From positions 1 to 35,731 of IMG/VR virus record IMGVR_UViG_3300006735_000092: a DNA stretch of 35,731 nucleotides. One strand, written 5' to 3'. The DNA is from a virus. Of this stretch, positions 3,854-35,731 are shown piece by piece. Every line of letters begins with the position of its first letter. The stretch's first letter is position 1. The notes under the pieces were generated by a model. It saw only the letters and a program-made list of their open reading frames with translations. It was not told where the DNA came from and made no database searches. Position numbers and translations under genes: made by a program.

Positions 3854-4010
3854 ATTTAGTAGAGAAATATTATACCACTTTAATTGTGGTAAATGTAATA
3901 AATGGTGGTCAGTATCTGACTACCATTTATTATCTATAGATAATAATAAAAAGGTGACTTGTCCTCACTGTAAACACACTGAAAAAATGATAGAAAATGA
4001 GAAAAGATGA
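3843..4010 (+). CDS. Small zinc-ribbon protein with GTG start
   Basis: The protein has 55 residues, overlaps the reductase stop by 11 bases and overlaps the next ATG by 14 bases. It has a textbook zinc-ribbon layout: CGKC near residue 15, a WW pair at 21-22, then CPHC near residue 40, followed by a charged tail ending ENEKR. GTG at 3843 is the only usual start codon in this frame, because a TAG lies at 3834 just upstream. Preceding A-rich sequence (GAAAAGA) fits the start style of the other genes. Small ribbons of this kind are common in T4-like phages; the role could be nucleic-acid binding or a protein contact. Because it is coupled to the reductase, a link to nucleotide metabolism or replication is reasonable but unproven. 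Confidence 0.8.
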   Translation: MKHKFSREILYHFNCGKCNKWWSVSDYHLLSIDNNKKVTCPHCKHTEKMIENEKR

Positions 4011-12108: not shown

Positions 12109-12991
12109 AATTAGAATAAAAACTAAAGATAGTGATAAGCGTGTAGTTATCCCTATAGCTCAGGACTTTGATGAGGTACTAGGTAAAGAACAACAATTAG
12201 CACTCTGGGATAGAGACCAGATAGAAAGACACACCAACCCAATCCTAGATTTTGAAACTATGAGGTTTTCACCGGCAACTATATTACCTGATAATAAAAT
12301 TTTTTATAGTTTATTGTTTGCGACACAGACCACACCTAATGGTAATGCTGCTATGTATTCTAATGATTATAGTTGGGCAGGTATCTATTATCCAGATATT
12401 AACAAAAGAAGAGACGTATTTAATAAAAGTTTTTTTAAGTTTGACTTCTATACCTTTCCCTTTGTTACTGAATTAAAAATAAGTTTTTCTGTTACGATGC
12501 CTATTAATAATGGTTTAAAAGTTAGTAGACAGATAGATAACAACCCAAATTCACCTAATTATGACCAATTTGCGTGGACTAGAGCCTTGGCAGAGGATGA
12601 TGATTTTACTATGGGGCCCTATTATTATGATATAGAATCTTCAGATTTTGTATTTAATAGTGTGGGAAAAGGTAAAGAAAATTATTACATACAGTGGTTA
12701 AAAGATGATTTTGTAGTTCCTGATAAAAACTTCTACATGACTTGTAGATTTTTTAACGCAGCGACGGGAAAGGTTCACAGATTTATAAACAAACCACAAC
12801 CAATAGACGGTAATGGTAACCCTGTGTACACATTAAACGGACAAGATTACTTCTTTTATAGGATTACATTCGACAGGTCCAACTTCACCTATAAATTTAG
12901 AGAATATGAACAAGGTCTATGGTCTGCAGCTGATATAGTTGGAGATAGTTTGGGCAACTCAATAAAATTTTATGAATATCTTAACCCATAA
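12095..12991 (+). CDS. Structural protein sharing the IR-K-TK...QDFD N-terminal module
   Basis: A 298-residue protein. Residues 5-26 (RIRIKTKDSDKRVV, then IAQDFD) repeat the N-terminal module of the 1167-residue protein: an alternating Arg/Ile strand, a basic turn, a Val strand and QDFD. The remainder is a compact, aromatic-rich, probably all-beta domain (FYTFPFVTELKISFSVTMPI; YYIQWLKDDFVVPDKNFYMT; FFYRITFDRSNFTYKFREYE). The start ATG lies inside the upstream gene's last codons, and its stop overlaps the next ATG. The shared module suggests that both proteins bind the same partner in the baseplate, which is inference. Confidence 0.75.
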   Translation: MTVNRIRIKTKDSDKRVVIPIAQDFDEVLGKEQQLALWDRDQIERHTNPILDFETMRFSPATILPDNKIFYSLLFATQTTPNGNAAMYSNDYSWAGIYYPDINKRRDVFNKSFFKFDFYTFPFVTELKISFSVTMPINNGLKVSRQIDNNPNSPNYDQFAWTRALAEDDDFTMGPYYYDIESSDFVFNSVGKGKENYYIQWLKDDFVVPDKNFYMTCRFFNAATGKVHRFINKPQPIDGNGNPVYTLNGQDYFFYRITFDRSNFTYKFREYEQGLWSAADIVGDSLGNSIKFYEYLNP

Positions 12992-15789
12992 TGGACGTTT
13001 ACAAATATACAATATGGACAGGTAATATCCCGGGGTCAGAACCAATAGACCCATGTAGTAGAGGGAGTGTTAACCCAACCAATACAATGACGGATTGTAA
13101 CTGTCCACCATTTGTGATGGCTACTACTCCTAGTGGGGGGTATGGGGCATTATCTACTAATTTTACAGGATTATTAGACCCTGATAGGTTAAGTGGTACG
13201 ACATATAACACTGGAACTTCTGTGTGGGAAGCTACCGAACCGGTGTCTCCTTTAGGTGGTTATAGATTAGGGGATGTGGTTTTAGCCGACCATGACGCGA
13301 TAACACCTTTTAATCCACGTGCTGGATGTTTAAATGAACAAGGACCACATTGTTTTGTATATGTACAACAAGATTATAATTTTACAGGATACAATTACTT
13401 TACCACACCAAACGGACCAGCACCCTGGAAGTCACCTATATATCCAATGGATTCACCCTACTACGAACCCGGAATGGGAATAGTAGGAATGCCTGCAGGA
13501 CCACAACTTTATGCTGGTACAGGTACAGGTGGTGGGTCTTATGATGGAGGCCCTTGGGTATGTTGCGATAGTGAAGATATATTTGATATTACAGCTCATG
13601 AAGGACCAGACCACCAGATACCAATATTCTTAGACCAAGATTTTAATGATATTGGGTATTACACACCTTTTGACGGTGGGATATTCCAGAAAGACCTATT
13701 CTCTAACTTTATAGTAACTTCAGACTTATCACAATCAAATGCGGGATATGTTATCACAGTTACAAATAGTACCCCATTTGGTTTATATAACGATACTCAA
13801 GGATTTAATTTTTCTATAGATTGGGGAGATGGGTCAGTACAGACACTACAATACCCAACAATTTCTATAACACATATTTACCCATTTGGACAAAATAGTG
13901 CTAATATTACAATACAGATGGTAGCACCTTGGGGGATAACAGCTATCTCACAACCTATAACTTTACCATACTTGACGGGTAGTTCAGTGAATATACCCAA
14001 TCCAAATCTATCATTTACCTTTAATCCACCATCGGGAGGGGCACCCGTAACACAAAATTGGATGTATTCTAGTTTCGGTCCTTTAGATAGTGGTACTAAT
14101 GTTTACGATTATGTTTCTGCAAATTTTGCACCAGTACCTATTTCAGTTACAGGGACAACAGATAGTCAGTTAAGTAACTTCCAGTTATATTCTACAGCTC
14201 CTTCTAATAGTCCTTATTTACCTAATGGTTATATGTTGAATCAACTAGTACCTCTTGGTGGGGAAATTGAAATGGGGTTAGGTGACTTTCAACCAACACT
14301 ATTCGGTGAGATAATAAGTGCTTCAAATAATTTTACAGCGTATACTATTTCTGATGGTGGAGCAGGAGGTAACCCAGTTACTATGTTTGATTATGAAAAT
14401 GGTGTTACACTATTTGAAGTAGATACTGTAGGTTTAAATGAATATAACTTGTTTACTCAGAGTTGTGACCCAGTAGGGTTAGAAGATTTAGAAGAAGACC
14501 CAGATATATGTGAGTTCTGTATAGGTGTTCAAAACCCACCTGCAGGTGTAAGTGTTGTAGTGACAACTAATCAAGGTATGTGGCAAACAGGTACAGGATA
14601 CCAAGTAGGTGATTTAGTTAGATTCGCTGGGTGTTGTTGGTATGCGGGGGGTACGATACCACCAATGAATAATGTACCACCTAATAATCCTGACGCTTTT
14701 GAAGGTGGTACACAAGGTACTGGTGTTGGTTATGCACCCGGTTTACAAGGGTGGTGGCCGTGTCCAGGACAGGTCTGTGAAGCGACTGATATTTTTACTG
14801 GAGCTGAGATTGATGGATGTACTGATAGTAGTGCATTAAATTATAATCCCCTTGCCACCAACGACGATGGTAGTTGTGTTTATAATGGAGATGACTGGTT
14901 AGGTGGTGGTGTGACAAGTAATCCTGATTATGGGATAGATGATGATGTAGGAATTGGTGTAAGTACGGGTGGAACAGGTACAAATACGACTGGTACCATA
15001 ACTTCTACAGCTGCATGTTGTGACCCACTAGCTAATAATACGGACCCTAATTGCGGTCAAAGTGGTGTTTTCAATGACGCTTCTTTATGTACTTATCCAT
15101 ATACTACTGGAGGACAATGGGTGTGTGACCCTAATAATGCATTAGAACTTAGATGTCAGGCAAATTCTGCTGGTAACCTAACAGGTCTTGGATGTTCAGC
15201 AGTAGAACATCCAGCAGAATTCGAACATATTGGTTTTGGTTGGACTTCACCTACAGCACCAAACACAGTAGTTAACTGTTCAAATGCGGTACCTACACCT
15301 AGCCAATCAGAAATATCAGATTGTACAAGCACATTAGGTTTACCAGGTCTTATGAATCAAGTAGAGTTTTCAACCAACGCATCAGGCGGTAGAGGTACTG
15401 GGTGTGTAAAAATTGACAAAGCATGGCATCCACGTAACCTCCAATACTGGAGTTCTCCAACAGGAACTTATGCTGACGGACCAACAGATTACGGTTGTTT
15501 TTACCCATTAAATTGTTTTCATTGGGAATACGCAACTTACTTCGGTGGAGTACAGTCATCTGGTTCAGACCCATATTACGCCACAATAAATGGTTTTGCG
15601 GCAATACCACCAGGTACATTTGGTAGAGATATTAGTGGTGCGTTAACTGGAGCTAATAAAATAAACCCTGTAACGGAACTAATAGACGCAAATAGTATGA
15701 TATACACCCAAGTAGTGTATAATAGTTATTGTGAATGTATGTCAGTTACTGATGGGTGCCCATCTCAAGTTAAAAACTATGTGTGGTAA
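12991..15789 (+). CDS. Large adhesin-like tail protein (PKD-like, CBM5/12-like and GCTD-type motifs)
   Basis: A 932-residue protein rich in Gly, Pro, Thr, Tyr and Cys. Segments visible in order: a Pro/Cys-rich N-terminus; a PKD-like beta domain around residues 265-325 (FSIDWGDGSVQTL and a downstream HIYPFG); a segment at 530-590 beginning MWQTGTGYQVGDLVRFAGCC and ending GWWPC, which has the W...Y..GD.V...G...Y layout of chitin/cellulose-binding module 5/12; the motif GCTDSSALNYNPLATNDDGS at 609-628 followed by CVY; and a weaker repeat near 675 (CCDPLANNTDPNC). These resemble surface proteins of flavobacteria and suggest binding of glycans or cell-surface polymer. The role as receptor-binding or baseplate decoration is inference. 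It starts within the previous stop codon (TAATG). Confidence 0.78.
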   Translation: MDVYKYTIWTGNIPGSEPIDPCSRGSVNPTNTMTDCNCPPFVMATTPSGGYGALSTNFTGLLDPDRLSGTTYNTGTSVWEATEPVSPLGGYRLGDVVLADHDAITPFNPRAGCLNEQGPHCFVYVQQDYNFTGYNYFTTPNGPAPWKSPIYPMDSPYYEPGMGIVGMPAGPQLYAGTGTGGGSYDGGPWVCCDSEDIFDITAHEGPDHQIPIFLDQDFNDIGYYTPFDGGIFQKDLFSNFIVTSDLSQSNAGYVITVTNSTPFGLYNDTQGFNFSIDWGDGSVQTLQYPTISITHIYPFGQNSANITIQMVAPWGITAISQPITLPYLTGSSVNIPNPNLSFTFNPPSGGAPVTQNWMYSSFGPLDSGTNVYDYVSANFAPVPISVTGTTDSQLSNFQLYSTAPSNSPYLPNGYMLNQLVPLGGEIEMGLGDFQPTLFGEIISASNNFTAYTISDGGAGGNPVTMFDYENGVTLFEVDTVGLNEYNLFTQSCDPVGLEDLEEDPDICEFCIGVQNPPAGVSVVVTTNQGMWQTGTGYQVGDLVRFAGCCWYAGGTIPPMNNVPPNNPDAFEGGTQGTGVGYAPGLQGWWPCPGQVCEATDIFTGAEIDGCTDSSALNYNPLATNDDGSCVYNGDDWLGGGVTSNPDYGIDDDVGIGVSTGGTGTNTTGTITSTAACCDPLANNTDPNCGQSGVFNDASLCTYPYTTGGQWVCDPNNALELRCQANSAGNLTGLGCSAVEHPAEFEHIGFGWTSPTAPNTVVNCSNAVPTPSQSEISDCTSTLGLPGLMNQVEFSTNASGGRGTGCVKIDKAWHPRNLQYWSSPTGTYADGPTDYGCFYPLNCFHWEYATYFGGVQSSGSDPYYATINGFAAIPPGTFGRDISGALTGANKINPVTELIDANSMIYTQVVYNSYCECMSVTDGCPSQVKNYVW

Positions 15790-15806
15790 TATAAAAAACA
15801 AGAATT

Positions 15807-17537
15807 ATGGCTAATACATGTACAGGTAAAATACAAATTCCAATTACAGGAAGTACTACGGATGGGGTAGCATATATAGCGGCCAATTATCCTAACGGTA
15901 ATATTGCTGATTATACTTTTTTCATCACACCATCGGAATATAATAGTGTAATGAGTCCAACTAATAGTAGCCCTTTCAATATAGGGGGTTCATTTGGACA
16001 AACCGCACCTTGTGCAGTGTATGATACTACAGGAGCGGTTATGGCATATCAAGTGTATGTCCAAGAATATAAATTTATACATATATTAGCTCCCCCAGGA
16101 CAATATGGGGGTCAAGGTGCAAATAATGGGCCTTATAGTATACCTCCACAATCAACCTACTCCGATTTTGTAGATGCGATAAATATGACCATTCACCTTC
16201 CTTTGCTGGGTGCAATGCTTGCAAATATCAATATAGATTATTATACTGTGTGTGATAAAGCAAATGCTACCATTATCGGTTCAACACAATACAATAATTC
16301 TACTAGTACCATTGGGTGTCAAATTACGTCACAAATTTGTAATTGTCCTAATACAGTAATTAATCCATGTGCGACGACAGCTTTAAATACTGGTATACAA
16401 CCCACAAATGTAATTGCTGCTACATATAGTTTACAAGGAGCTTATGTTACTGGTACTTACCTAGAATGGCCTATAGGAAGTGGTGACTACTGGTTTTTAT
16501 ATGCGATTGGATATACAGTTAGTACTCCTTTTGTTTGGGCTCTGACAAATACCAACCCATCAACACACGATGCGTGGGTACCATGTGGGGTAGACCCAGG
16601 ACCTACAGAGAACCCTAACGATTGTCCCAATGAGTTCTTATCTTACCAAGACTTAAGTCCCACCCCATATCAAACATACCCTAGTGGTCCATGGGACCCA
16701 AATATAGGGTACCAAGTAGGTGAAACCTTCACTATGGATTGGTACAATGATGGTTTAGGTATATTATTAAGTCATTCGGACCCAAACTGGATTAACTTCA
16801 TATCAGGTCAAGGATTATCAAACCCTATAACTCAATTTGAGTTACCTGATTATGATTGGGTTGACCAAGAATGGATTAATCAAGGGTCTGGGATAATAGT
16901 AGAATTTTTAGGGAATTGTAATAATGTACCAGGAGTACACGAATATATATCTCTTGTCCATAACATACCACCATTTAACGACTCAACACCGAATGATTGG
17001 ACAGATGGGTTTTCTATACCTGGTTTTGCGAGTGCGGGTGGTATAGGTATACCTTATTGGCAATCACCAGGAGCTGACGACTATCCAGGTGTGTACCCAA
17101 CTGATGTTGTGTGGTATGCACAACAAGGTCTATCTCTTGTGAATGGAGAGGTAGCTTGTTGTAAGGAGTTACTCATAGGCTGTATGGACCCTATAGCGGT
17201 AAATTATAACCCAACCGCTGACCTAGCGTGTCCTGACTTACCACAAATGGGTACTGACCAATGGGGTAATCCAGTATCTCTAGGCCCACCTGACGGTCTT
17301 CCAGATTGTTGTGAGTATAATGATGTAGGTGAAGTAGCAGAGTGCCTACCAAAACTAACTAAAGAAGAATTTTTAATGAACATCGCACAGAAACCAGAAA
17401 CACGTTCAGATGTATTTATTGAAAGAGGGAAAACTTCAGTTTTTGAAAGAACCCAAAGATTAGCACAGACCCCGACCATAGGAGAATTAACAATTCATGG
17501 TTATGGGTACTATAAAATTAACGAACAAAGATTTTAA
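15807..17537 (+). CDS. Adhesin-like structural protein with a second GCTD-type motif
   Basis: A 576-residue protein, beta-rich and Asn/Gly/Thr-rich. The N-terminal 200 residues hold several Cys residues (CNCPNTVINPC). Mid-protein aromatic stretches (GPWDPNIGYQVGETFTMDW) echo the W...Y..G pattern of its neighbour. From residue 458 it carries GCMDPIAVNYNPTADLACPD, then a 20-residue insertion and DCCEYND, a variant of the GCTD motif of the preceding protein. The last 70 residues change character to a charged segment with SDVFIERGKTSVFERTQRLA and GYGYYKINEQRF, which looks like a separate docking domain at the C-terminus. It lies 17 bases after its neighbour, which suggests a pair. Confidence 0.75.
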   Translation: MANTCTGKIQIPITGSTTDGVAYIAANYPNGNIADYTFFITPSEYNSVMSPTNSSPFNIGGSFGQTAPCAVYDTTGAVMAYQVYVQEYKFIHILAPPGQYGGQGANNGPYSIPPQSTYSDFVDAINMTIHLPLLGAMLANINIDYYTVCDKANATIIGSTQYNNSTSTIGCQITSQICNCPNTVINPCATTALNTGIQPTNVIAATYSLQGAYVTGTYLEWPIGSGDYWFLYAIGYTVSTPFVWALTNTNPSTHDAWVPCGVDPGPTENPNDCPNEFLSYQDLSPTPYQTYPSGPWDPNIGYQVGETFTMDWYNDGLGILLSHSDPNWINFISGQGLSNPITQFELPDYDWVDQEWINQGSGIIVEFLGNCNNVPGVHEYISLVHNIPPFNDSTPNDWTDGFSIPGFASAGGIGIPYWQSPGADDYPGVYPTDVVWYAQQGLSLVNGEVACCKELLIGCMDPIAVNYNPTADLACPDLPQMGTDQWGNPVSLGPPDGLPDCCEYNDVGEVAECLPKLTKEEFLMNIAQKPETRSDVFIERGKTSVFERTQRLAQTPTIGELTIHGYGYYKINEQRF

Positions 17538-17540
17538 AAT

Positions 17541-18473
17541 ATGGCATTAGGAGCATACGGAATAAAAAGACCAGCAGACGTTTCACCAGAAGACGTAGAA
17601 GTACTATACCACTACTCTCCAACGAGAGATTCGGGTAGTAATTTCCAATTAAGGAGACTTGACTCAGCTCAGGTATTAGCTCCTTATTTACATAATAATA
17701 ATACAGCGGTAGGAACTAACCCACCAACATCAGGTGTTGAGATTTTAGGTGGATTATATCAACTGACACTACCTAATGACCAATTTAATGTAAAAGGGAT
17801 ATATACTGTTTATATTAGACCAGCGGAAATTAGAACAACAATTGTAGATTGTGGTATACTCGCCGCTCTACCAAATGTTAAAGGTTTAGTGTTTGATTTA
17901 AATAATGTACCAGCACAGTATAGAAATAGAATGTCACCTATGAGTTTAGTGGGATATAGGATAGAATATTTGAATAATGACGGGAGTAAGATATCTAACT
18001 TTTTTAGAGTAGTTACCTCTAATTTCTATTGTGAACCAGTTCCAGCTAATCTTACACAAACCAACCAAGTATCTCCTAGGTATGTGTATACCGATAACCC
18101 TACTAATCTAGTTTTTTGTACACTATCACCAACAGCCGCACCTACAAATCAACCTAATGCGATACCATTTATCGGTCAACCGACACAAGGTGTTGTTATA
18201 ACTAATACATATTTTAATCCTATAACGTTAGATATAGAAATGGTGGACCACGATTTTGAAACTTTAGCTATTGGATTATATGGTAACCAGACTAAGTCTA
18301 TAGAAGATGGTATATATACACTTTATGACTTAACTGGAGCTAATAACATATACAAACAATATAATTTATTTGAAATAAGAGACCAGTTTGATAAGAAATT
18401 ATTTGAGGTGAGACAAGATAGAGGAACCCAGATAGATTTCAGTAAAAACTTTAATACAGTAATTACTCAGTAA
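17541..18473 (+). CDS. Structural protein of the baseplate cluster, unknown family
   Basis: A 310-residue soluble protein with no signal peptide, membrane segment or visible repeat. Notable segments are MALGAYGIKRPADVSPEDVE at the N-terminus, VYIRPAEIRTTIVDCGIL near residue 95, and a C-terminal LFEIRDQFDKKLFEVRQDRG. The even mixture of beta-type hydrophobic residues and Asn/Pro turns fits a baseplate or tail protein. It sits 3 bases after the previous stop and shares its TAA with the next ATG, so it is probably translated together with the 1161-residue wedge candidate. Nothing identifies it more closely. Confidence 0.72.
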   Translation: MALGAYGIKRPADVSPEDVEVLYHYSPTRDSGSNFQLRRLDSAQVLAPYLHNNNTAVGTNPPTSGVEILGGLYQLTLPNDQFNVKGIYTVYIRPAEIRTTIVDCGILAALPNVKGLVFDLNNVPAQYRNRMSPMSLVGYRIEYLNNDGSKISNFFRVVTSNFYCEPVPANLTQTNQVSPRYVYTDNPTNLVFCTLSPTAAPTNQPNAIPFIGQPTQGVVITNTYFNPITLDIEMVDHDFETLAIGLYGNQTKSIEDGIYTLYDLTGANNIYKQYNLFEIRDQFDKKLFEVRQDRGTQIDFSKNFNTVITQ

Positions 18474-21400
18474 TGGCAAAATTTTATTACCCACCAGCAC
18501 CTGGTAGTGGAGCCGGGACATTTAGTGATAATCTAGTAGGACTTCAGATTACTGATGGTTCTTCTATGGCTACAATGGGTAATTTTACTTTTAATCAAGG
18601 TACAACTCAACAAAATGTATTTAACTACTCATTAGGTGGTTTTTCAGAACCTATAACACTAGAACTTTTAGCGAAAGGTAATGAAGAATTATTAGAGTAC
18701 CTTTCTAATTCATCTCTCTTTATAAAATTTAATTATGACCACGACGATATTAGTAAGTTGGTTCAGTATGGTTCTTTAAAAGAAAGATTAAGAGTATCGA
18801 CTCAAGAAATTATTAATTTTTTCCCCGCAGCATTTTATGTTGATGGTGTTAATGTTATAGATGGGTCTAGTGGTAACACTACTCATAGTGTGACTTACTC
18901 TGACGTTACGGACCAAACAACTATTGTGGTTTCTAAGTTTAAATTTTCTAACCCATTTGGTATAGAATATACCGAAAGAGGTTTATATGGTGTAGAAAGT
19001 TCAATGGATATGGACTATGTGGTAATTCCAGAAAATACCGATATTAGTACGGTAGCTTCTAAGGTAGATTTAGGAGAACTTAGTCCACTAAGAAACTTTT
19101 CATTACAATATCCGAACTACGTACTAAGTTTTGATGGTAGTGGAACCACAGAATATAAAGTAATAGATTACACACCTATAGATGATAATAGTACGGGATT
19201 AACAATAACAATAGAGGGTAAACCTTTCGGGTTAAACCCAACCCCGTCAACTACCAACTTTTATATAAAACCTAATAAGTTAGAAAGTCAGAAAGTATTT
19301 GATAATTTAGGTAGTGTAGAGAAATTCATAGTAAACCAAAGAAGTGTACCTCAATATACTTCCACCTTTAAAGTGATGAGTGAAACAGATGGTGGAAGAA
19401 ATTATATACAAAAAATTAAATATACCTGGCCTAAAAGTGATTTAGTAAACCTAGATTTATCATCTCAAGAATACACTAACTATATCCAAAATTTGGTAGA
19501 TATAGGGAATAGAATAGATGAAGAAAAAACTAATTTAGTATCTAGATTTTTAACATCAGGAGCTTTAAAAGATTTTGATACGGGAGATAGGAAAGTTGAG
19601 AAAACCCTACAAATATACGGAAGAAGTTTTGATGATGTAAAAAGATTTATAGATGGGATATCATATATGACCAATGTCACATATGATGGTGTAGAAAATA
19701 TACCTAACAAACTTCTAAGAAATTTTGCATTAATGTTGGGGTGGCAAACACCTAATATTATAAATAGGAAGGATTTTCTAGACACATTATTAGATACCGC
19801 TCCCCCACAATTTTCTGGTGAATCTATAGGTTTAACACCAGCTGAGTTAGATATAGAATTATACAGAAGAATAATAATGAACACTGCTTACCTTTTTAAA
19901 TCTAAGGGGACAAGAAAAGTAGTAGAATTTATTTTTGAATTGATTGGTGCACCTGAAGCGATGACTCAGATTAACGAGTATGTTGTATTAGCGGACGGGA
20001 GGTACAAAACGGGTAAGATGGTTGAGGATAGAAAATTAGGTGTTGTTTACGAGGAATATGATAACGGTTTTGACTACTACTGGTCTTTCTTATCGGCAGG
20101 AGTAATAACCTATCCAAACATAGAATATAATGCTGCTATGTCTACTTATGGTGGTACTAGTTATCTTACACCAGAAATTAAAACACATGGTTACACCAGA
20201 GAAGACTATCCGATAGACGACGAAGGATACCCAACTAAACCTAGATACACTAACAATTATTATTTCCAAAGAGGAGCTGGATGGTATGAAGAAAATTTAC
20301 AACATAGAGGTGAAGTAATAATAGATTTAGCGAATTCCGTTTTTACAGGATGTACACCAGTAATTAATACTAAATTTAATCAATTTACGTGGGGTGGATT
20401 CTTTGGAAATGTACCTTATGGTGTGACATCTGATGACCCTGGAGCTCCTTACCTTGAAAGGTTTAGGAGATTTCCATTTATGCCATTTGGTTTTGGGTTA
20501 ACACATGAAATTGACGATAAAAAATCTTGGGTAGAGACTATACAATATCCTAATTTAATAGGGAAAATAGATGGAATATCTTTATGGAGAGACCGTGCAA
20601 CAGCAGAAATGGAAGCACGTGAGGTGGGCTGCCCTGGAATACATACCCACACCTTATATAATGAAATGGGGTATATGGCTTGTAAAGACCACCAAACCGC
20701 TACTAATGTAATGTTACAAACATATGTAGAACCACAAGAAAAAATACAGAGAGTATATGATTTTACAATAAATAGATATAGTGATTATCTTACAGATAAT
20801 GAAAAATTCATTATAAATGTAAAGAATACTGATGTCTTCATTAACCCCTCACAAGGGTTTGTTTATGATGTATGGAAGAACTCAATTTTAAGTGGTTCTC
20901 CATTCAACGGAACACCACTTACACCATCTAGATATGGGTGGAATAATACCGAAGTAGCTTACCCAGGGTTAGGAAAACTTGATGATACATTAACACTAAT
21001 TAACGCTAAAGACTTTCCATTTAAAGCATTTAAAAAAGGACTTATAGAGACCTTTATTAATGTTAAAAATAGATTAACCATATCTGATGGTAAAACCGGT
21101 GGGTACGCCACACTAGATATGCTATTCTTAGACTATGTTAAGAAAAAAAATGGGGAGAATAATGATTATACGTATAGTAAATTAATTGAATATGCATCTA
21201 TTATAGGTACAGATTGGTTAAAAATTATGGAACAATTTATTCCAGCTACCACCTTATGGCAAGGGGGACAACGAATAGAAAATTCCATATTTCATAGAAA
21301 TAAATTTGACTACACTAATTTAGCTGATAGTATATATTCTGGTACAGTATCGGGACCTACAGGTGGTGACAATGGTGGTGACAATGGTACTGGTGGTGAC

Positions 21401-21958: not shown

Positions 21959-21974
21959 TAACTTTTTAGTGTAG

Positions 21975-26057: not shown

Positions 26058-26082
26058 AAAAGAAAATAATATTTAAAGATAA

Positions 26083-29000
26083 ATGGCGACAGGGAATATT
26101 TTTATAAGTGAATATACGGTTACACCTACACTATCAGGTCAAACTACTGGTACTATAACAGTAGAAGACATTAGTGGTGGGACAGCACCTTATATAATAC
26201 AATGGTATGGTCCAGGGCCTCACCCACAAACTTACGCGTTAAATTCAGGTAGTACATTTAACCCAACAGGGTTATCCGCTGGAACTTATAGTGGAAGAGT
26301 TATAGATTATGTGGGGTTAAGTGCGGACACTCAAATAACAGTATCCGCTTTTACAGCTCCACAATTTTCAGCAACAGTAAGTGATAATGGTTGTGTAAAT
26401 GACCCTAATTTACCGTGTACATTTACAGTGTGGTCTGCGGGTACAGATACTGCTTTTCAGTCAGCAAGCACATTTAATTATACATTATACAAAAATGGTG
26501 AATTAGTAAAAGAAGTTTATGTAAGTAGTGCTACCACATCACCTAATCAAGGTGCTCCAGGTAGAGGGGGTTATTATGTATTCTCTGGTTTAACTAATGG
26601 AGAGTATGTATTTAATATTTCTACGGTATCTTCACATATAGAACACAGAAGAGATGTAAGACAATCTGTATGTACCGCGAGTACAACTATAGATGCTGGT
26701 GACACTCTAATAATGGGGAACCATCCTAACTGGGCATCCTTCTCAGCAATGACATCAGCATGGACAATGACCAATACTTTTTGTCCAGGTCAAATCCAGA
26801 TTAAACCTACAAGTGTAGGGGAGACAATAAAGAACTATACCACAGGTATCTTTAAAAATGGTATAGTTACAGATTCCCCGAATCACTGGTTGTTTACGGG
26901 TAACTCACAAACAGGAGCATTAAATTATCCTACTAGTAACCCTAACAGTGGAAGAACAACAATAGTTAAAAATTTCTATTTAGGGGTTACGGGTGCAACT
27001 GATATGCAAGAAGGATATAACTGGGGACCATCAGGTGGTGGTGGACATCCTTTAGTAGATGGTACAAGTAAAGATTTAGATGGCGTAGATATAGTTCATG
27101 ACTGGCAAGACGGTTATTTTTATTATAATAATAACATACAAAAATTTGTAATATTTAGAACAATTAGTGGTAGTGTATCTAGTACTCTCACTACTATGGG
27201 ATGGCAAACACTATGTCCTAGTAGAGAGGATAATAATATTGGATACAATGTTGGGTTTAATACCAATTCAGGTAGTCCTACATCTTCTTTAGCTATAACC
27301 ACAGCAAAATATAGTCCTTTTGTTCAAAAATTAGATGTAGCTGGGACATGTATGGGTCCCATAGGTTCAAATGACGCGTACCCAGGAATAACTAATTCAG
27401 ACGTTGTTCAGTCCTTTATCAAAACCAACCCAGCTAATACTACAGCTAACGCTTTTACCGGGTTCACACCACAATCAAGTGCTACCAGTCTTAGTTTTGT
27501 AAGTTCATGTGAATACAATGATTATACCTTCCAATTGAGTACTCTCTTTAGTGGAACCACCACATCAGATAATAGAGGTTGTATTGCTGATATAGTATTA
27601 GCACAAATGAGAGATAGTAGAGGGTTGTACGGTATGAGTGGACAGACACACCAGTTAGTTTTAAGAATTTCAGCCTCTGGAACTAGTGTTATGGAGATGT
27701 TAGAGAGTAATGTATTGGAAAGGGCAGCATCTTCATCACCAATTGAAAACAACTTACAATATACCCAAGGACTAACATTCCAACGAGACTTACACGGAGA
27801 CGAAATTATTTTAGAAGATAACCACACTACAAGTGATGTGTTACAACCCCCTAGAATGATAACTAAAAAAGAAATCGCAAATAGAAAAGATAAATTTTTA
27901 CCATCAGTAAAGTTTGACTATAGTAAAGTGGTTAAAAATGAAAAGTTTGGTGACCCAGTGACTTATGTAAGTGAAGGACTACAAACTAAAGAATTTAATG
28001 GGACCATCTTAAGGTATCCAGATGCTAGTGTAAGTGCAACAACTTCACTTACATCACCCTATAGAGCTAATAAAACAATGTCCCTACAAGGAGCAGTGCG
28101 TATTAGAATTACTAGGAGTGGGTCTGAAGGAGAACAATTTAGGGTACAAATGACTGATACTATGGGGGATAACAGTATTTACGTCGCTTGTACAAAACAT
28201 GTTGGAGACACTAACGAATTTAACGATAAGTTTGAAATGAACTTCAATCTACTAGATAAGACCACTTGGTCTGGTAGTTCTTTTAGTGCACCATCTTGGG
28301 TGATTGGTAATGAATTGGTTAAATATTTAGGAACTACGAAAATTGGATTTAAAGCCGCTCCACGTAAAACTACTGGTAGTTTGGGACTTGCCCATTATTA
28401 TGATGTTGGTTTAAGTGGTAATACAGGGACTACAATAACACCAGTAAGTCACGGTGAACATCCTATTATTTTTTCTGGTACAGCTTTTACATTAACTTCT
28501 ACCGCCACAACTAATGTTATAACAACTAAAAATTGTGATTATTACAATGACTGTGAATATACGGTACCTAAGATAAGACCACAGATGGATGCCATATTTC
28601 AGAGTTTACCAGAACCTGATTTTGATTTGTCGGGTGGTACTCTAGGTAATAATTTAGGAATATCGGGTGAATCCATTTATAATTTATCTGCTGAAACAGG
28701 TATGGACTTAAATGTGTTTTTAAGTGGTAACACAGCAGATTTCATAAATAAACAGGCTTACCTTAAGTTGGATGTTTATCCTTATGAATTCTCGAAAGAA
28801 AAATTTTCAGTACAACCAGATTATAGATATGTTTTTGATGTTCCAGCAAGAGTTTCCACACCAACCCTAACAACTAAGACTACACCTATATCCGCAACAA
28901 CATTTTTTCCTTTTTCAGCGTTTTCTACAGGTACATCATGGCAGTTTTTAATAAAACCATCATCTTTATTTAGAGATAAGAGTGACCTTACAAATAATGT

Positions 29001-30126
29001 TTATATTGACACATCAACAGTTTTAGATAAAGTTACCTATGATAGACAAAGGGATTCTATAGTGACACTAGTAGAACCACCTAGAGAACCTTCACTTAGA
29101 AATCAACAAGTTCAGTTCGCTTCAAACGTGGAAGCAAGACTAGAAAGTGAAGCGTTTACGGTTACTGGAGTTCCTGAACCATCAGACCCAAACTACTCTG
29201 CGTTTACTTGGTCAGGAGCTGTCTTAAGTTATAATGTAGGTTCTAGTATGTTGGTTAGTGTAAACGGAGTTACTGTACGTGAAGAAGGTTATAGTACTAC
29301 CTTTGGTACTCCTTCAGGGACATTTGTTACTGGTAGTACATCTGCGGACACCAACGGTGGGGATTATAGAGTAAGTAGTATTAGAGGAACAGCTTCACAA
29401 ATTACATTTAGGGGTGGGACACTAAGGAATGGTGATGTAGTTAATGTGATTTACCCACTTAGGGATAGTAAGAGTTATTGGAAACAAACTGTAGACTTTT
29501 TCGGAACCATAACAACTAACAGTGCTTCAACACTCTATAGAGATAGTTTCTATTATTATATTAATTTAGATTATCCAGCTTTAGGTGCTGTGGGTATTGT
29601 ATATAACGGACAAATACTAGTGGAAAACAGTGACTTCCAAAGAGTAGGTAACGGATTAATCCAGTTATTAACTATTACTTATGACAATGGAGATTTAAAT
29701 AACTGTGCCAAATTAGGTGAATGTAGTTTTACCTTATATTACTTAACACAATACACTGTTGTTGGTAGAACAAGTACCAGAGAACCAACTTCTTTAGTGA
29801 CTTACACTAAAACATTAGGATTTAAAGAATCTCTAAAACAGATGGTTTATAATTATAGCACGGGTGAAGTAGTCCAGGAAAACTATAAATTCTATAAACA
29901 TTCTGATTTTGGAGGTAAAGAAGAAAAATTTAAAATTACGGTTCCTAGTGCAGGGACATATAATTATAGGGTAATTGCTACTAGATATTACCCACTTTTT
30001 AATGGTGAGGAAGTGACCACCAGTAGAATTACACCAGATGTGAGATTTGAAGTAAGTAGACAAACATTCTTCTCACCTTATAAACTACCCGGACAAAGAC
30101 AAGTTAATAACCGAGGTGGATACTAA
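26083..30126 (+). CDS. Giant fibre-like protein with N-terminal SprB-like segment
   Basis: A 1347-residue protein. Residues about 22-88 resemble the SprB repeat of Bacteroidetes gliding adhesins: ITVEDISGGTAPYIIQW, then NPTGLSAGTYSGRVID, the 'GGxxPYxxxW...GLxAGTYxxxVxD' pattern. A second Ig-like stretch follows to about 200 (GLTNGEYVFNIS). The middle is Ser/Thr/Gly-rich, with a charged, phage-like section near residues 560-640 (NVLERAASSSPIENN, MITKKEIANRKDKFLPSVKF) that may begin an assembly domain. The C-terminal third is beta-rich and ends VNNRGGY. It is likely a tail fibre or baseplate-periphery protein; receptor contact by the SprB-like end is inference. The leader is A-rich with TATTTAAA at 26070. 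Confidence 0.78.
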   Translation: MATGNIFISEYTVTPTLSGQTTGTITVEDISGGTAPYIIQWYGPGPHPQTYALNSGSTFNPTGLSAGTYSGRVIDYVGLSADTQITVSAFTAPQFSATVSDNGCVNDPNLPCTFTVWSAGTDTAFQSASTFNYTLYKNGELVKEVYVSSATTSPNQGAPGRGGYYVFSGLTNGEYVFNISTVSSHIEHRRDVRQSVCTASTTIDAGDTLIMGNHPNWASFSAMTSAWTMTNTFCPGQIQIKPTSVGETIKNYTTGIFKNGIVTDSPNHWLFTGNSQTGALNYPTSNPNSGRTTIVKNFYLGVTGATDMQEGYNWGPSGGGGHPLVDGTSKDLDGVDIVHDWQDGYFYYNNNIQKFVIFRTISGSVSSTLTTMGWQTLCPSREDNNIGYNVGFNTNSGSPTSSLAITTAKYSPFVQKLDVAGTCMGPIGSNDAYPGITNSDVVQSFIKTNPANTTANAFTGFTPQSSATSLSFVSSCEYNDYTFQLSTLFSGTTTSDNRGCIADIVLAQMRDSRGLYGMSGQTHQLVLRISASGTSVMEMLESNVLERAASSSPIENNLQYTQGLTFQRDLHGDEIILEDNHTTSDVLQPPRMITKKEIANRKDKFLPSVKFDYSKVVKNEKFGDPVTYVSEGLQTKEFNGTILRYPDASVSATTSLTSPYRANKTMSLQGAVRIRITRSGSEGEQFRVQMTDTMGDNSIYVACTKHVGDTNEFNDKFEMNFNLLDKTTWSGSSFSAPSWVIGNELVKYLGTTKIGFKAAPRKTTGSLGLAHYYDVGLSGNTGTTITPVSHGEHPIIFSGTAFTLTSTATTNVITTKNCDYYNDCEYTVPKIRPQMDAIFQSLPEPDFDLSGGTLGNNLGISGESIYNLSAETGMDLNVFLSGNTADFINKQAYLKLDVYPYEFSKEKFSVQPDYRYVFDVPARVSTPTLTTKTTPISATTFFPFSAFSTGTSWQFLIKPSSLFRDKSDLTNNVYIDTSTVLDKVTYDRQRDSIVTLVEPPREPSLRNQQVQFASNVEARLESEAFTVTGVPEPSDPNYSAFTWSGAVLSYNVGSSMLVSVNGVTVREEGYSTTFGTPSGTFVTGSTSADTNGGDYRVSSIRGTASQITFRGGTLRNGDVVNVIYPLRDSKSYWKQTVDFFGTITTNSASTLYRDSFYYYINLDYPALGAVGIVYNGQILVENSDFQRVGNGLIQLLTITYDNGDLNNCAKLGECSFTLYYLTQYTVVGRTSTREPTSLVTYTKTLGFKESLKQMVYNYSTGEVVQENYKFYKHSDFGGKEEKFKITVPSAGTYNYRVIATRYYPLFNGEEVTTSRITPDVRFEVSRQTFFSPYKLPGQRQVNNRGGY

Positions 30127-30140
30127 AATTTGAAATATAA

Positions 30141-30148
30141 TATTTATT
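30141..30148 (+). promoter_or_regulatory. TATTTATT octamer before the 865-residue gene
   Basis: TATTTATT lies in the 37-base gap between two large genes, 15 bases before the ATG, followed by an A-rich run directly at the start codon. It has the same spacing as the TATTTATA before the gene at 6866. It could be a promoter for the last fibre genes or a neutral A+T-rich leader. Confidence 0.25.
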
Positions 30149-30163
30149 AATAAATAATAAAAA

Positions 30164-32761
30164 ATGGCTTATATATTAAAAGACTCAACACAAGGACAAG
30201 TTTCGGTTAAATTAACCGACGCTGGAAGAAAAAAATTATCTGAGGGGAAGTTGAATATAGAACTATTCCAATTAGGGGATAGTGAATATTGTTACGACTG
30301 TTATAACGGTTTACCTCAACAAAGTAGGGGGATACACATCCAACAGGCAAACTTTAACGCTCAGAATCTTAACCCTATCCCTGAAAGGAATAAGGCACAC
30401 GTAAAATACCCAATACCTATATCACAAAATGCTACAGGTACAACTTTTGGAGCGGTACAAGCTGCTCACAATTACCAAGAGGTTTTTAATCGTGCATCTC
30501 AAAGAGGATTCTATAGTGCGAATACAGGTGATTGTTGTAGTTTTTCAGCTTTTACTGGGTCAGCTTATACATTAAATGCGAATTTCTTTTTCCCTGTTTC
30601 AGCCATGACAGGTGGAAGTCAAGTAGCACTTCTTTCAGCTAATACTTTTCAAAATCAAGCTTTTTCAGGTGGTCCAGGAAGTATACCAGGTTACTCACCA
30701 ATTGTAGGTGACCTGTTGAGTATTAGATACATATTTCAAAGTGGAGCAACAGGAACTACTAATTGTTTTAATTTACCATGTACAACACCATCCGCTCAAT
30801 TATTTTATCAAGTTACAGCGGGTAATACGGTATCTGGGAGAACCGGAGGTACTTGGAAAGGTACTTCTAACGACCCTTTATACCTCACAGTCGATAGGAA
30901 TTTACCAGACTTCGGTGCTTTTTCTGGTGGTTCAGCAGGGACAGATATTGTACCTATAAAAAATTATACAGGTGCAACAGGAACATTAGTGGGGGCATGT
31001 GTAAAAGTATACCCATCCACAAGTGGTGGTACTTACTCCGCAAACTCCGCGAATCCAATGTTAACATATTTTGGAGCTGACACGCCAATACCTTACTGGT
31101 CACCAGGTTCACTTTCATTTGAAAATAATTGTGATGTGTCAGTTAAAGACGTTAAAGTTTGGAATATGAATATAAACTGGACTGAAACTGTCGCAGGTGT
31201 AGACACAGTTAATGAGGGTTATGAAAATGTAAATGAATATGGCTCAACTGGTTATTGTGGTACTAAAGAATATTTAGGTTATTCTAATAGTGAAGGTCAG
31301 GTAGATACGGGAGAAAGAACTGATTTCTATACTGGACTAAAAAGTTCTTCATGGTATTATGATTCTTATCATAATATTAAATGCGTAGTCCCAGAAAGAC
31401 AAAAAGCTATAGCTATCCTACATTACACCAACCAAACAATTTCTAATTTTTATGGTGAAAAGTTTGCTCTTAAGAAGAGTGGAAGTACCCAAACAGGGAT
31501 AGGAGAAGCTCGAAACTTTAGAATTAATATGCCGTGGTTAATGTGGCATAAGAAAAATACAGGAACATCTATAGCTGCTACCGCACAGGACGGATGTCAA
31601 GGAGCAGATAAGTACGGTCAATGTTTCTATGTGGACCCACCTAACTATCCAGATATATTTCCATCACAACCATATATAATGCAATCTACGGTAAATCCTA
31701 ATATGAACCATAATGGTCTGAGATATTATTATCTCTGGGATGATAATTCTGACACTGTAGTTGGTGAAGGTTCGGTAGTAGCGGGACCTAATCCAGTAGG
31801 TAAGGTATTTCCTGATTTAAAAATGGCTGTAATTCATGATGAAGAGTTAGTTGCTGCCATGTCTTACAAAGCTAATAGAAGTTGGACATTACCAGCTCCT
31901 AGAATTCAGATGATTAATGCTGGAACCAATTGTTGCGGTTCCGCATCAACACTAGGTGTATTCACCCAACCATACCAAAAAATGTTTGTAAGTTATCTAG
32001 TGGAGAGTAATTCGGGTTTAACTACGGGATTACATTGTAATTATTATATTGATGTTAAAAACCCTAATGATGGTAAGTCTTACGATTTAGAAATTGAGTT
32101 TGGTGCAGAGTTTCCTTACTTAAAACCTTTTGATTTAGGTGGAACAGCAGGAGCATCAGGAGGAACAGGATGGCAAGGTAATAAAGTTCACTTATTATGG
32201 CAAAGAGTTACAGCACCACAGACAGACCCATTACCAGACCAATGGACTAGAACAGAAGTAACCGACCAAATTGGTCCATGTGATACTTTTGGATTTGGAA
32301 ATCAACTGCCTCTAAGTGGGTGTCAAATATCAAGCGCGGCAACCAAGATATACCTAACAAGAGCAAATCAAGTTACAGGTACAACTTATAACTTACATGA
32401 TTACATTAATATTCCTTTACAAACCACAGAAAAAGACCTATTACAATTTGGTGATGAATACTTCTTTTATGGTGAACTGGAGTCTGATATTATGGCGACC
32501 ATGTACGAAATGAAGTATTATATAAATTTAGCAAGTTCTCAGTTTGCGGGAGACACTAATAATTTAAGTGTGGGTAATTCGTTAAATCCTTCCTACAAAG
32601 ATTATTATCAACAAAATCAAATATACCCTAACGTCTATATTACTGAAGTTGGTTTATTTAATAATGATAATAATTTTCCAGAACTAATGGCAATAGCTAA
32701 ATTTATGAATCCACAATTAAGAGATGGAGCACAACAATTTGTCTTAAGTTTAGACTTTTAA
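30164..32761 (+). CDS. Tail fibre-type protein with shared N-terminal domain and collar-like C-terminus
   Basis: An 865-residue protein, first of three consecutive genes sharing an N-terminal domain: KLTDAGRKKLSEG at residues 16-28 and FQLGDSEYCYD at 35-45. The central region is rich in Gly, Thr, Ser and aromatic residues, with short Cys pairs (YCYDCYNG, NCCGSAS). The C-terminal 45 residues read YITEVGLFNNDNNFPELMAI followed by AKFMNP and end QQFVLSLDF. This resembles the 'vtEiGLyd...LvAv' element of phage tail-collar/fibre proteins, which is usually near the N-terminus, so its C-terminal place is unusual. Likely located at the baseplate rim as a fibre or attachment protein. It is separated from the next start by 4 bases. 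Confidence 0.77.
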   Translation: MAYILKDSTQGQVSVKLTDAGRKKLSEGKLNIELFQLGDSEYCYDCYNGLPQQSRGIHIQQANFNAQNLNPIPERNKAHVKYPIPISQNATGTTFGAVQAAHNYQEVFNRASQRGFYSANTGDCCSFSAFTGSAYTLNANFFFPVSAMTGGSQVALLSANTFQNQAFSGGPGSIPGYSPIVGDLLSIRYIFQSGATGTTNCFNLPCTTPSAQLFYQVTAGNTVSGRTGGTWKGTSNDPLYLTVDRNLPDFGAFSGGSAGTDIVPIKNYTGATGTLVGACVKVYPSTSGGTYSANSANPMLTYFGADTPIPYWSPGSLSFENNCDVSVKDVKVWNMNINWTETVAGVDTVNEGYENVNEYGSTGYCGTKEYLGYSNSEGQVDTGERTDFYTGLKSSSWYYDSYHNIKCVVPERQKAIAILHYTNQTISNFYGEKFALKKSGSTQTGIGEARNFRINMPWLMWHKKNTGTSIAATAQDGCQGADKYGQCFYVDPPNYPDIFPSQPYIMQSTVNPNMNHNGLRYYYLWDDNSDTVVGEGSVVAGPNPVGKVFPDLKMAVIHDEELVAAMSYKANRSWTLPAPRIQMINAGTNCCGSASTLGVFTQPYQKMFVSYLVESNSGLTTGLHCNYYIDVKNPNDGKSYDLEIEFGAEFPYLKPFDLGGTAGASGGTGWQGNKVHLLWQRVTAPQTDPLPDQWTRTEVTDQIGPCDTFGFGNQLPLSGCQISSAATKIYLTRANQVTGTTYNLHDYINIPLQTTEKDLLQFGDEYFFYGELESDIMATMYEMKYYINLASSQFAGDTNNLSVGNSLNPSYKDYYQQNQIYPNVYITEVGLFNNDNNFPELMAIAKFMNPQLRDGAQQFVLSLDF

Positions 32762-32765
32762 TGGA

Positions 32766-33869
32766 ATGGGATTTGTTAACACAGGAAATACAAATACACT
32801 AGAATTAAACCTTACGGAAAGAGGTAAGGCATTAATTGGTGGTGGAGGTGGAGGTATTAGTTTATTTACCACTTTAGCTAGTGCTAAATTCGCTCTTCGA
32901 GACCAAGGAATGGATTATAGAAGATTCTCTTCCGCCCCTGTACCAGGTTCAACCGTTACCATTAGTGATGGGCCTTGTTTTGACCAACAATATAGTACAA
33001 GTCCATTTAATGAAAGACTATCGGGTACGTGTTTTTTTAATTATGCTGACATAAGGGGTAGAGGTGGTAATGCACCATGTAATAAAACTGTGTTACGTTT
33101 GAATGATATCGAAGCGGGTGGACCATTCGAAGATTTAGGAATCAACGATAATCTATTGTATTTAAATGAACCTGGAATTCCTAGTGTTCCTGAAATAGAA
33201 GAAGAAGAAGTGATTCCACCACCACCTCCAGTATGTTTTGATTTGGGGTACGACTCGACATTCGGTCAACAACCAAATCCTGATAGTTGTGCGTGTACCA
33301 CTTATGGGACTGTTTGGGAACCTTTAATTGGTGAATCGGAAAATATATTTAATGGTTGGAATATGCAAGAGACTATAGCGGGTGGTTATAATCCCGCACT
33401 AGGTTGGAATGATTCAGGTCTTACCCCAGCTAATACTCAGGGGGGTGGTTGGTTAGGTTTCGCTTACTATTATCCATCTTATGAGGCAGTACTGAATGTC
33501 ATTCTAAATCTATCTATACAGAATAACACACCTCTACCAGCGTTAACTGGTTTACTGGGTCCTGCCGACGGTTTACTCGCACAAATAGGGACTCAAACTC
33601 AACTTATGGTTAGTGATACAGGGGGTGTTGTTGGTGATGTATATGGTGACGGTAGTTTAGCGTGTAGTGATTTATCATGGGTTATGAAGTGTCATTGTCA
33701 AGGTGTTCTTGAAGGAGACGTAATACCAACACCAGGTTACCTTAGTATGCAAACTGCTATTAATAACGTAATAGATTCATATATAGTAGCTGTAGGGTGT
33801 GATAATATCCCTAGTTCTATGTGTGATGGGTCTACGGCACAATGTCAAAATCCTTCTTTATGTGCATAA
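32766..33869 (+). CDS. Fibre-type protein with shared N-terminal domain, E/P linker and dockerin-like loop
   Basis: A 367-residue protein, second of the three paralogous starts: NLTERGK at 15-21 and KFALRDQGMDYR at 41-52, but with six glycines (25-30) inserted between them. A rigid acidic/proline linker (EIEEEEVIPPPPP, about 143-155) separates this from a C-terminal half with paired cysteines (DSCACTTYG). Residues 290-303 (GDVYGDGSLACSDL) have the Asp-x-x-Gly-Asp-Gly calcium loop of a dockerin or EF-hand repeat, but only one copy is seen where type I dockerins have two. The start at 32766 is chosen over ATG 32761, which is in another frame and soon hits a stop. The C-terminus is Cys-rich (MCDGSTAQCQNPSLCA). 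Confidence 0.77.
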   Translation: MGFVNTGNTNTLELNLTERGKALIGGGGGGISLFTTLASAKFALRDQGMDYRRFSSAPVPGSTVTISDGPCFDQQYSTSPFNERLSGTCFFNYADIRGRGGNAPCNKTVLRLNDIEAGGPFEDLGINDNLLYLNEPGIPSVPEIEEEEVIPPPPPVCFDLGYDSTFGQQPNPDSCACTTYGTVWEPLIGESENIFNGWNMQETIAGGYNPALGWNDSGLTPANTQGGGWLGFAYYYPSYEAVLNVILNLSIQNNTPLPALTGLLGPADGLLAQIGTQTQLMVSDTGGVVGDVYGDGSLACSDLSWVMKCHCQGVLEGDVIPTPGYLSMQTAINNVIDSYIVAVGCDNIPSSMCDGSTAQCQNPSLCA

Positions 33870-33933
33870 GAGAATAGTTTACAAATAAAAAAGAATAATT
33901 AAGATAATTATATAATAAGAAAGAAATAAAAAT

Positions 33934-35731
33934 ATGGGATATATAAGTTCAGCATCAACAGTCTATATGGACTTCAACTTAACCGACGCGGGTAGAACTG
34001 CTATGGTTACAGGTGATTTAAGTCAGGCAATAACTAAATTTGCTTTATCAGATGGTGATATAGATTATAGACAACCTACATCAACAGGACATACTGTAGT
34101 TGCACAAGGAGGGTTTTTAACAGATGTTACAGGTACACATAATAGTTGTTCAGGAGCTATTACAGCGGGTTACCAACAAAATCCTGACGCGATGTTACAG
34201 ATGGATGTACAAGCCGCGATTAATACCGGTGGGGGTACTCCAACGGGTACTATATCTACACCACAAGTAGTGGTAGGTTATACTAATGATATAACTAATC
34301 AGATGGAATATTACTCTTCTTTAGAGGTTGAGGTTTATCTACATGATTACCTAGTATTACAAAAACATTTAATGCAAGCCTTCCCTGATGCACACCAGTT
34401 ATTATACGAATACCAGTCAGGGGGAACAATAACACCACAAATTTGGAAAGATGCTTTCTTAAATGGTTTTGTACAGTTAAGTGGACAAACATTTAATGCC
34501 AGTCATTTAAAACAAGCTTTAAACTTAATACAATCTTCTCCAGGTAGAGGACAATTTTTAGATTTCTATGATGAGGTAAAAATAAAAGATGGAGCATCTT
34601 TTCTAGATGATAATTTTAGGGTTTCAGCTACGACTGATTCTCTAATGAATAATATCCTCAATCTGTCACAAAGACAAATGATATTTGATACAGGTTCTAT
34701 GGGCACAGATAGTGGTTCAGGACCAGGACAACTGGATGTTGTTAAACCAGTTAGATTAGCCACTCAAGATGGGTTGAGTAGTAGTAGTGAATACCTGCAA
34801 AACCACCCATACCAATTATCATTTAGTAATAAAGGAGCACAGTACCACGGTAATGGACCAGCAGGGTTAGGATTATCTTCACAAGGATTTGGTTATTTAG
34901 TATTACCACAACAAAATAGTTTTGCGGCGTCTACTTTAAACACTAGTGCGAGATATCCTGATTGGCAGAATGCAACTTTCAACACAAATGTTGATTATCA
35001 GAATGCTACGGGGACACAAGATTTCGCTACTTACGCTCTAGGTTTTGTTAGTCCTTGGTTATTAGAAAACTTTAATACGGGTGGTGGACCTTTAACATTA
35101 ACTAACAATGCTATGATGGGGGCAAATGGTGTATCAGCATCATATATGAACCCAGTAGACCCTGTGGGGACGAATGGTGTCCAAGCAGGGACTTATGATT
35201 CGGTAGAATATATTATACCAACGATAAGAACTAGAAAACAATTAAATGAATATAACGGTATAAACTACTATTACCCTATACCTACCCCTTATTTAGATGG
35301 TAGTATTGATATTTCTTATGGTGATGCACAAATGGGTGTACCTACTACATTTATTGGTGATAACATTTATATGAGATTATTATCTCCTGGAAATTATTTA
35401 AGTAGTTGGGGAGTGATAATGGGTAATCTCGAATATGTGGATATGGGTGTTACACAGCAGAATATATATGGGCAGGTGGACATTACTCCTTCTGTTTTTG
35501 CACCTCCACAATCTACTAATACTACTAACATACAAAACGGTGGAAGATACTATAATTTCTTAAGTAGAGCCTTACTGAATACAGATAAAATGTTAGCTCA
35601 AATGCAATCAACATCAACGGTAGGGAACGCAAACGTTAACAATACTCAGATGACGGAAATTACTCAAGGGTCTAACGCGACGGGAGGTACTTACTATAGT
35701 GGATTTACCAGTACATCAAACGGTGTGGATG
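33934..35731 (+). CDS. Fibre-type protein with shared N-terminal domain (3' end outside window)
   Basis: Open from ATG 33934 to the window edge: 599 codons without a stop. It is the third protein with the shared N-terminal domain (NLTDAGRTAM at 15-24; KFALSDGDIDYR at 35-46). Residues about 100-250 are more helical and charged than in its two neighbours (YLHDYLVLQKHLMQAF; FLNGFVQLSGQTFNASHLKQ), and the following part is Gly/Asn/Ser-rich and fibre-like. No Cys clusters are visible, in contrast to the preceding proteins. The 64-base gap before it is A-rich with no hairpin, and the ATG is preceded by AAATAAAAAT. The remaining length and the C-terminal domain cannot be known from this window. Confidence 0.8.
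   Translation, partial: MGYISSASTVYMDFNLTDAGRTAMVTGDLSQAITKFALSDGDIDYRQPTSTGHTVVAQGGFLTDVTGTHNSCSGAITAGYQQNPDAMLQMDVQAAINTGGGTPTGTISTPQVVVGYTNDITNQMEYYSSLEVEVYLHDYLVLQKHLMQAFPDAHQLLYEYQSGGTITPQIWKDAFLNGFVQLSGQTFNASHLKQALNLIQSSPGRGQFLDFYDEVKIKDGASFLDDNFRVSATTDSLMNNILNLSQRQMIFDTGSMGTDSGSGPGQLDVVKPVRLATQDGLSSSSEYLQNHPYQLSFSNKGAQYHGNGPAGLGLSSQGFGYLVLPQQNSFAASTLNTSARYPDWQNATFNTNVDYQNATGTQDFATYALGFVSPWLLENFNTGGGPLTLTNNAMMGANGVSASYMNPVDPVGTNGVQAGTYDSVEYIIPTIRTRKQLNEYNGINYYYPIPTPYLDGSIDISYGDAQMGVPTTFIGDNIYMRLLSPGNYLSSWGVIMGNLEYVDMGVTQQNIYGQVDITPSVFAPPQSTNTTNIQNGGRYYNFLSRALLNTDKMLAQMQSTSTVGNANVNNTQMTEITQGSNATGGTYYSGFTSTSNGVD

Follow-up and report, generated by a model that had tools for sequence, protein, structure and literature searches.

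The long run of co-directional large genes that follows the baseplate wedge genes in the DNA analysed here can be read as specifying the baseplate of a phage with a contractile tail, together with the layer by which it contacts its host; the encoded modules would act as virion-borne adhesins and a hypervariable insertion site would be the likely host-contact region (probability about 0.6). The DNA, referred to below as the window, comprises all 35,731 bases (35.7 kb) of one virus record and represents a fragment of a larger phage, whose host is most likely a Bacteroidota bacterium. This reading is considered the most likely since fixed ends with a fast-changing, module-rich middle are typical of regions in contact with receptors or glycans. 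In the mechanism proposed, an ancestral baseplate protein of ~360 aa, made up of a core resembling PKD and a small domain at its C-terminus, would serve as an insertion platform, with CBM5/12-like, GCTD and Cys-rich modules being inserted between its halves and rapidly replaced or multiplied without change at either end. Adjacent fibres carry a domain of SprB type and, among relatives, also a dockerin, and the inserts, which we infer to bind host glycans or surface proteins from a position on the virion, would in this way set host range.

A first-pass annotation had proposed six motif types in this cluster, mounted on a contractile baseplate and typical of Bacteroidetes surface proteins. All six were found where it had located them, and the contractile setting is supported by the gp25 and gp6 homologues in the same gene string. 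The surface-protein character is supported for the SprB repeat, the dockerin, GCTD and the PKD-type fold, but not for the Cys-rich and CBM5/12 modules.

Baseplate gene string and its relatives

Both wedge proteins expected of a T4-type contractile baseplate, gp25-like and gp6/J-like, are encoded in the window (Table 1; genes are named by their first position), along with a DnaB-like helicase and a ribonucleotide reductase. The reductase, a class II-type enzyme encoded just upstream of the baseplate genes (1955-3853), shares 68% identity with the enzyme of Microcystis phage Mel-JY01 and 63-65% identity with proteins of Oceanospirillum and Vibrio phages that carry a recombinase annotation, and a small DUF5522 protein (3997-4233; E 3.5e-19) lies between it and the baseplate genes. 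The 1,167-aa protein of gene 6866-10369 contains a ~65-residue hydrophobic stretch in its middle (window 8405-8629) which is kept in all aligned relatives; the N-terminal part of the protein resembles CarboxypepD_reg (E 0.0015 in one relative), and the protein could be a membrane-inserting tail component.

Searches of Pfam, PHROGs and PDB sequences with single window proteins gave next to no matches, and profiles of relatives were required. At least 247 viral contigs carry gp6 relatives, and the tail regions of 18 long ones were fetched; scanning for gene 17541, whose conservation is the highest among the neighbours, contributed the best 80 of at least 595 related stretches. Relatives of the variable region were found via this neighbour, a pattern scan with the whole of gene 12991 having found no close relative. 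The order gp6 - 6866 - 10369 - 12095 - [variable] - 17541 - 18473 - 21975 - 26083 - 30164 - 32766 - 33934 is identical in every one of the 18 contigs that extends that far. The evidence from relatives strengthens the case well beyond what the window alone provides.

Table 1. Features of the baseplate and fibre region of the window
Feature	Position	Strand	Basis
gp25-like baseplate wedge protein	4465..4932	+	PF04965 E 4.2e-13, above cut-off; PHROG 261
gp6/J-like baseplate wedge protein	4934..6793	+	PHROG 219 E 4.3e-18; at least 247 related viral contigs
Baseplate-cluster protein with long hydrophobic stretch	6866..10369	+	orthologues in 18/18 fetched relatives
Conserved cluster protein	10369..12108	+	orthologues in 18/18 relatives
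Conserved cluster protein, left flank of variable cassette	12095..12991	+	orthologues in 18/18 relatives
Split baseplate protein, first piece: PKD-like core and variable insert	12991..15789	+	giant-orthologue profile; L400 alignment
PKD-like beta-sandwich (gene 12991 aa ~238-326, IDWGDG motif)	13702..13968	+	AlphaFold model, Foldseek, alignment
CBM5/12-like segment (gene 12991 aa 531-551)	14581..14643	+	PF02839 E 0.068; alignment conservation; recurrence
GCTD motif GCTDSSALNYNP in gene 12991	14815..14849	+	DNA motif match
Split baseplate protein, second piece: variable insert and conserved C-terminal domain	15807..17537	+	L400 alignment
GCMD variant of GCTD motif in gene 15807	17178..17212	+	DNA motif match
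Conserved C-terminal domain (gene 15807 aa 515-576)	17349..17534	+	
Right flank of cassette, most conserved cluster protein	17541..18473	+	at least 595 related viral stretches
Large baseplate-cluster protein	18473..21958	+	distant relative of immuto gp109 and Mel-JY01 protein
1,360-aa tail protein with C-terminal Cys-rich module	21975..26057	+	family alignment
Cys module YNC..GDC..GPYMSLGECEDRC in gene 21975	25875..25958	+	conserved cysteines in 13 orthologues
1,347-aa fibre-like protein with N-terminal SprB-type domain	26083..30126	+	family alignment
SprB-type domain (gene 26083 aa ~6-90)	26098..26352	+	Pfam, family alignment, family profile
865-aa fibre with N-terminal LTDAGRKKL motif	30164..32761	+	profile; C-terminal ~70 aa shared with immuto and Mel-JY01 proteins
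Short fibre with 30164-type N-terminus and half dockerin	32766..33869	+	profile, alignment
Remaining dockerin half GDVYGDGSLACSDLSWVMKC in gene 32766	33633..33704	+	orthologues above Dockerin_1 cut-off
Third gene with LTDAGRKKL-type N-terminus, cut by window end	33934..35730	+	

A split baseplate protein and its insertion site

Genes 12991 and 15807 constitute two pieces of one baseplate protein, since a compact relative (L400) aligns to both: its aa 54-298 to 12991 aa 210-487 and its aa 301-359 to 15807 aa 515-573. In the 18 fetched relatives the same position is occupied by a single very long gene, whose product has 2,440-2,991 aa, 7.4-8.5% of them cysteine, and a profile built from these giant orthologues gives 241 bits (E 1.5e-73) over aa 208-551 of gene 12991. 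Giant orthologues such as L087:8382-17357 (2,991 aa) have up to ~250 Cys per chain, a content that is unusual for proteins folding in the reducing cytoplasm.

The spacing from gene 12095 to gene 17541, measured in the 69 contigs having both neighbours, which are not independent samples, varies from 1.08 to 9.6 kb. Less than 2 kb is found in 55 of the 69, where a single gene of 357-412 aa is present (in a few, with a second small ORF); six have a giant gene with a separate 73-77-aa ORF, and the widest spacing, 9.6 kb, holds a 2,902-aa gene with 212-aa and 73-aa ORFs. The split is not a sequencing error, given that the two-gene form, with GCTD motifs and the arrangement of the window, also occurs in eight other contigs (8/69). 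Across the whole range the core and the tail domain stay at the ends, the C-terminal domain being continuous with the core in the compact forms but standing apart, as the 73-77-aa ORF, next to giants. In expanded forms, CBM5/12-like, GCTD and Cys-rich sequence fills ~2.5 to 8.5 kb between the PKD-like core and the 60-aa tail, with the result that one conserved baseplate protein ranges from ~360 to ~3,000 aa among relatives; in the window, the split protein includes an insert totalling ~960 residues, and its N-terminus is longer than that of the compact form. The inserts diverge much faster than the flanks: between the window and the contig L393, identity is 35% and 27% in the inserts, compared with 76% in the tail domain and 80% in gene 17541. 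A profile of the N-terminal part of the split protein found no bacterial match in 199 Flavobacteriales genomes.

The PKD-like segment claimed for gene 12991 has been supported by structure prediction and Foldseek, but not by Pfam. The AlphaFold model of aa ~238-326 is a beta-sandwich of moderate confidence (pLDDT mostly 56-85), whose strands may correspond to the seven of a PKD domain with a WGDG motif; the Foldseek matches agree with this, including the PKD domains 1l0q and 1wgo, while the best PDB match of the core region, obtained with a low-confidence model, is laminarin-binding SGBP-B, a Bacteroides surface glycan-binding protein. Neither PF00801 nor PF18911 has a match in the window, and relatives reach E 0.0024-0.045, below cut-off. 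WGD at the core is kept in 20/31 relatives, and the core matches a viral 364-aa 'PKD domain-containing protein' (E 4.6e-16). As the size of the latter corresponds to the compact form, the PKD-like domain is ancestral to the split protein and not a late acquisition from the host. The PKD-like and SprB-like domains, both found in distant compact relatives, are old components of the tail proteins and not recent host captures.

Among the inserted modules, the CBM5/12-like segment is the first copy of a module repeated in giant orthologues. Giant orthologues each contain its pattern (W..Y..GD.V...CCY) 2-4 times, compared with 0.01-0.02 occurrences after shuffling, although PF02839 remains below threshold everywhere: the window reaches 13.6 bits (E 0.068) against a cut-off of 26.2, and no copy in a relative passes, the best being E 0.0013-0.0031. 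The GCTD-type motif was correctly placed in both 12991 and 15807, with two DNA matches in the window against 0.00 expected from shuffling. As a host marker it is only partial: 63 of the 80 genome matches listed are Bacteroidota, the others including archaea and further phyla, and it is common in viral contigs, where at least 12 of 80 matches adjoin baseplate genes of the same kind. The Cys-rich segment of gene 21975 is present throughout its family, and giants carry similar modules; its supposed host-like character was not borne out. It has no Pfam name, occurs in 9/10 phage records, and is taken to be specific to the phage family because it is absent from 150 Flavobacteriales genomes.

SprB-type and dockerin modules of the fibres

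The SprB-like segment proposed for gene 26083 has been upheld, even though the Pfam family (PF13573, cut-off 28 bits) scores below cut-off on the protein (E 0.0012, 18.9 bits) and in the genome search of the window (25.3 bits). All 13 aligned orthologues begin with a domain around the motif SGxTxPYxxxW, and the family profile matches 186/199 genomes of Flavobacteriales, in almost every case through its N-terminal part (profile positions ~8-120), but 0/144 control genomes from the phylum of a Bacteriovoracaceae MAG. In the two host proteins examined in detail (L371 and L372) the matches are tandem repeats, and several others fall in host proteins that also bear Pfam SprB. A tail gene of the relative L424 has five SprB stretches above cut-off (71.3 bits, E 4.9e-20), and compact relatives have SprB-like domains in the gene following 18473. 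Judged from these alignments and profiles, the homology of the 26083 N-terminus to SprB-type repeats of Bacteroidetes surface proteins is real. The window fibre differs from the host repeats in having a single, N-terminal copy, and Pfam scans of the tail proteins revealed no T9SS sorting-domain family. The N-terminus of a fibre usually attaches to the virion rather than contacting the host. An AlphaFold model of gene 26083 (aa 1-1180) had a mean pLDDT of 43, and its Foldseek matches, generic Ig/FnIII folds, were set aside.

Genes 30164, 32766 and 33934 have a common short N-terminal motif, also found in immuto gp107, which would fit a common virion attachment site. The last ~70 residues of gene 30164-32761 (ITEVGLFN...LMAIAKF) are also found in a number of immuto and Mel-JY01 genes from the fibre region and recur in a ~390-aa downstream protein of relatives, indicating a portable fibre C-terminal module. 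The family PF12571, considered for these fibre termini, was rejected, with no match in the window and weak matches elsewhere. Nor did any PHROG family significantly match one of the ten genes of the window from 12095 onwards, and the claim that the segments differ from ordinary phage fibre families therefore stands.

The dockerin-like loop reported in gene 32766 is half of a genuine domain. Orthologues of ~260 aa end in CADFNGDGxVDxxDL...GDFNGDGxVDxxDL, a complete dockerin whose two duplicated calcium-loop segments are those of type I, and 13 of 16 score above the Dockerin_1 (PF00404) cut-off. In the window and its close relatives (L379-L381), however, only the second half is kept, and this single calcium-loop segment does not reach Dockerin_1. 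A pattern scan located the full-length protein in 19 viral contigs, and no isolated phage record gave a significant match. Unlike typical type I dockerins, the domain sits on a fibre-type N-terminus, and a cohesin partner was found in none of the group's 19 records, one of them 210 kb long. It is doubtful, though conceivable, that the intact dockerin of relatives provides calcium-dependent, cellulosome-type docking to a cohesin, carried either by the host surface or by a different virion protein; if so, the virus would exploit a cohesin-dockerin pair for attachment or tail assembly.

Known systems and alternative readings

As in the T4 baseplate wedge, gp25 and gp6 family members stand in tandem in the window, whereas families 6866, 12991 (N-terminal part), 18473, 21975, 26083 and 30164 gave only chance-level matches in profile searches of the PDB and match no T4 protein. 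Flavobacterium phage vB_FspM_immuto (immuto) and Mel-JY01 share with the window gp25 and gp6 homologues (gp6 at 25-27% identity), a distant relative of gene 18473 (family profile against the Mel-JY01 protein, E 2.6e-10) and fibre N- and C-terminal modules, but their compared ORFs include no detectable homologues of 12991/15807 or 21975 and no clear one of 26083. A cohesin domain above cut-off (E 2.5e-10) is present in immuto gp015 (L377:5692-6423), two genes after a lectin C-type protein, and immuto gp079 has a weak dockerin match.

The arrangement described could also reflect structural spacers, with the SprB, PKD and Cys-rich modules stabilising the tail tip without host binding and the divergence representing drift in permissive loops. 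Such a role is consistent with the single, N-terminal SprB-type domain of the window's family and with a PKD-like domain that belongs to the ancestral core, and Ig-like domains on phages are often expendable. Nonetheless, inserts that are large and modular, have been replaced repeatedly and include CBM-like and GCTD modules go beyond loop drift, and dockerin has a known docking role; this explanation is considered rather unlikely. Less probable still is that the modules bind to particles or polysaccharides of the environment (chitin, laminarin, algal glycans) in which the hosts live and glide, the phage waiting on the surface in a manner comparable to the mucus-adherence model for gut phages. 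The CBM5/12-like repeats, the SGBP-B fold match of the core and the precedent of epithelial adherence in PKD/BACON phages (PMC13370021) point in this direction, yet CBM5/12 is below threshold and the fold match covers a low-confidence model.

The first-pass annotation had further suggested that the fibres mimic or compete with host gliding and attachment proteins, a proposal that is not supported and is considered highly improbable. The SprB-type domain of gene 26083 is genuine, but SprB repeats are generic modules, of which a Flavobacteriales genome has 2-133 copies distributed among many host surface proteins, and homology to them therefore does not imply a gliding role; the copy is single and N-terminal, and no T9SS signal was found. 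The resemblance of some modules to bacterial surface proteins might also be expected of a chimeric contig or of bacterial DNA misassembled into a phage record. This is scarcely credible when other contigs have an identical gene order and the same split, and when the N-terminal profile of the split protein has no match in the Flavobacteriales genomes.

A host-contact region built on the baseplate remains the preferred reading. In Bacteroidota gut phages, PKD and BACON adhesins bind epithelial layers (PMC13370021). The Ig-like, PKD and BACON adhesins of that study are likewise modular Ig-superfamily domains near structural genes of Bacteroidota phages, myoviruses included, but the window modules, as predicted from sequence, are of SprB-type, dockerin, CBM5/12-like, GCTD and Cys-rich kinds, and here they expand one conserved baseplate protein. 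SprB-type repeats and dockerin would extend the known Ig/PKD/BACON repertoire of these phages; no report of either on phage tails was found in the open-licence literature searched, which is weak evidence of novelty.

Taken together, the data describe a widespread uncultured T4-like phage group whose tail tip would be assembled from modules otherwise typical of Bacteroidetes surface proteins, and suggest that a baseplate protein has been stretched into an evolving set of attachment domains. An insertion site between the fixed ends of a small baseplate protein, whose content ranges from zero to over 2,000 residues, is a candidate for reading host range from metagenomes, and gives a specific and testable model of the way in which a large uncultured phage group may equip its contractile baseplate for attachment.
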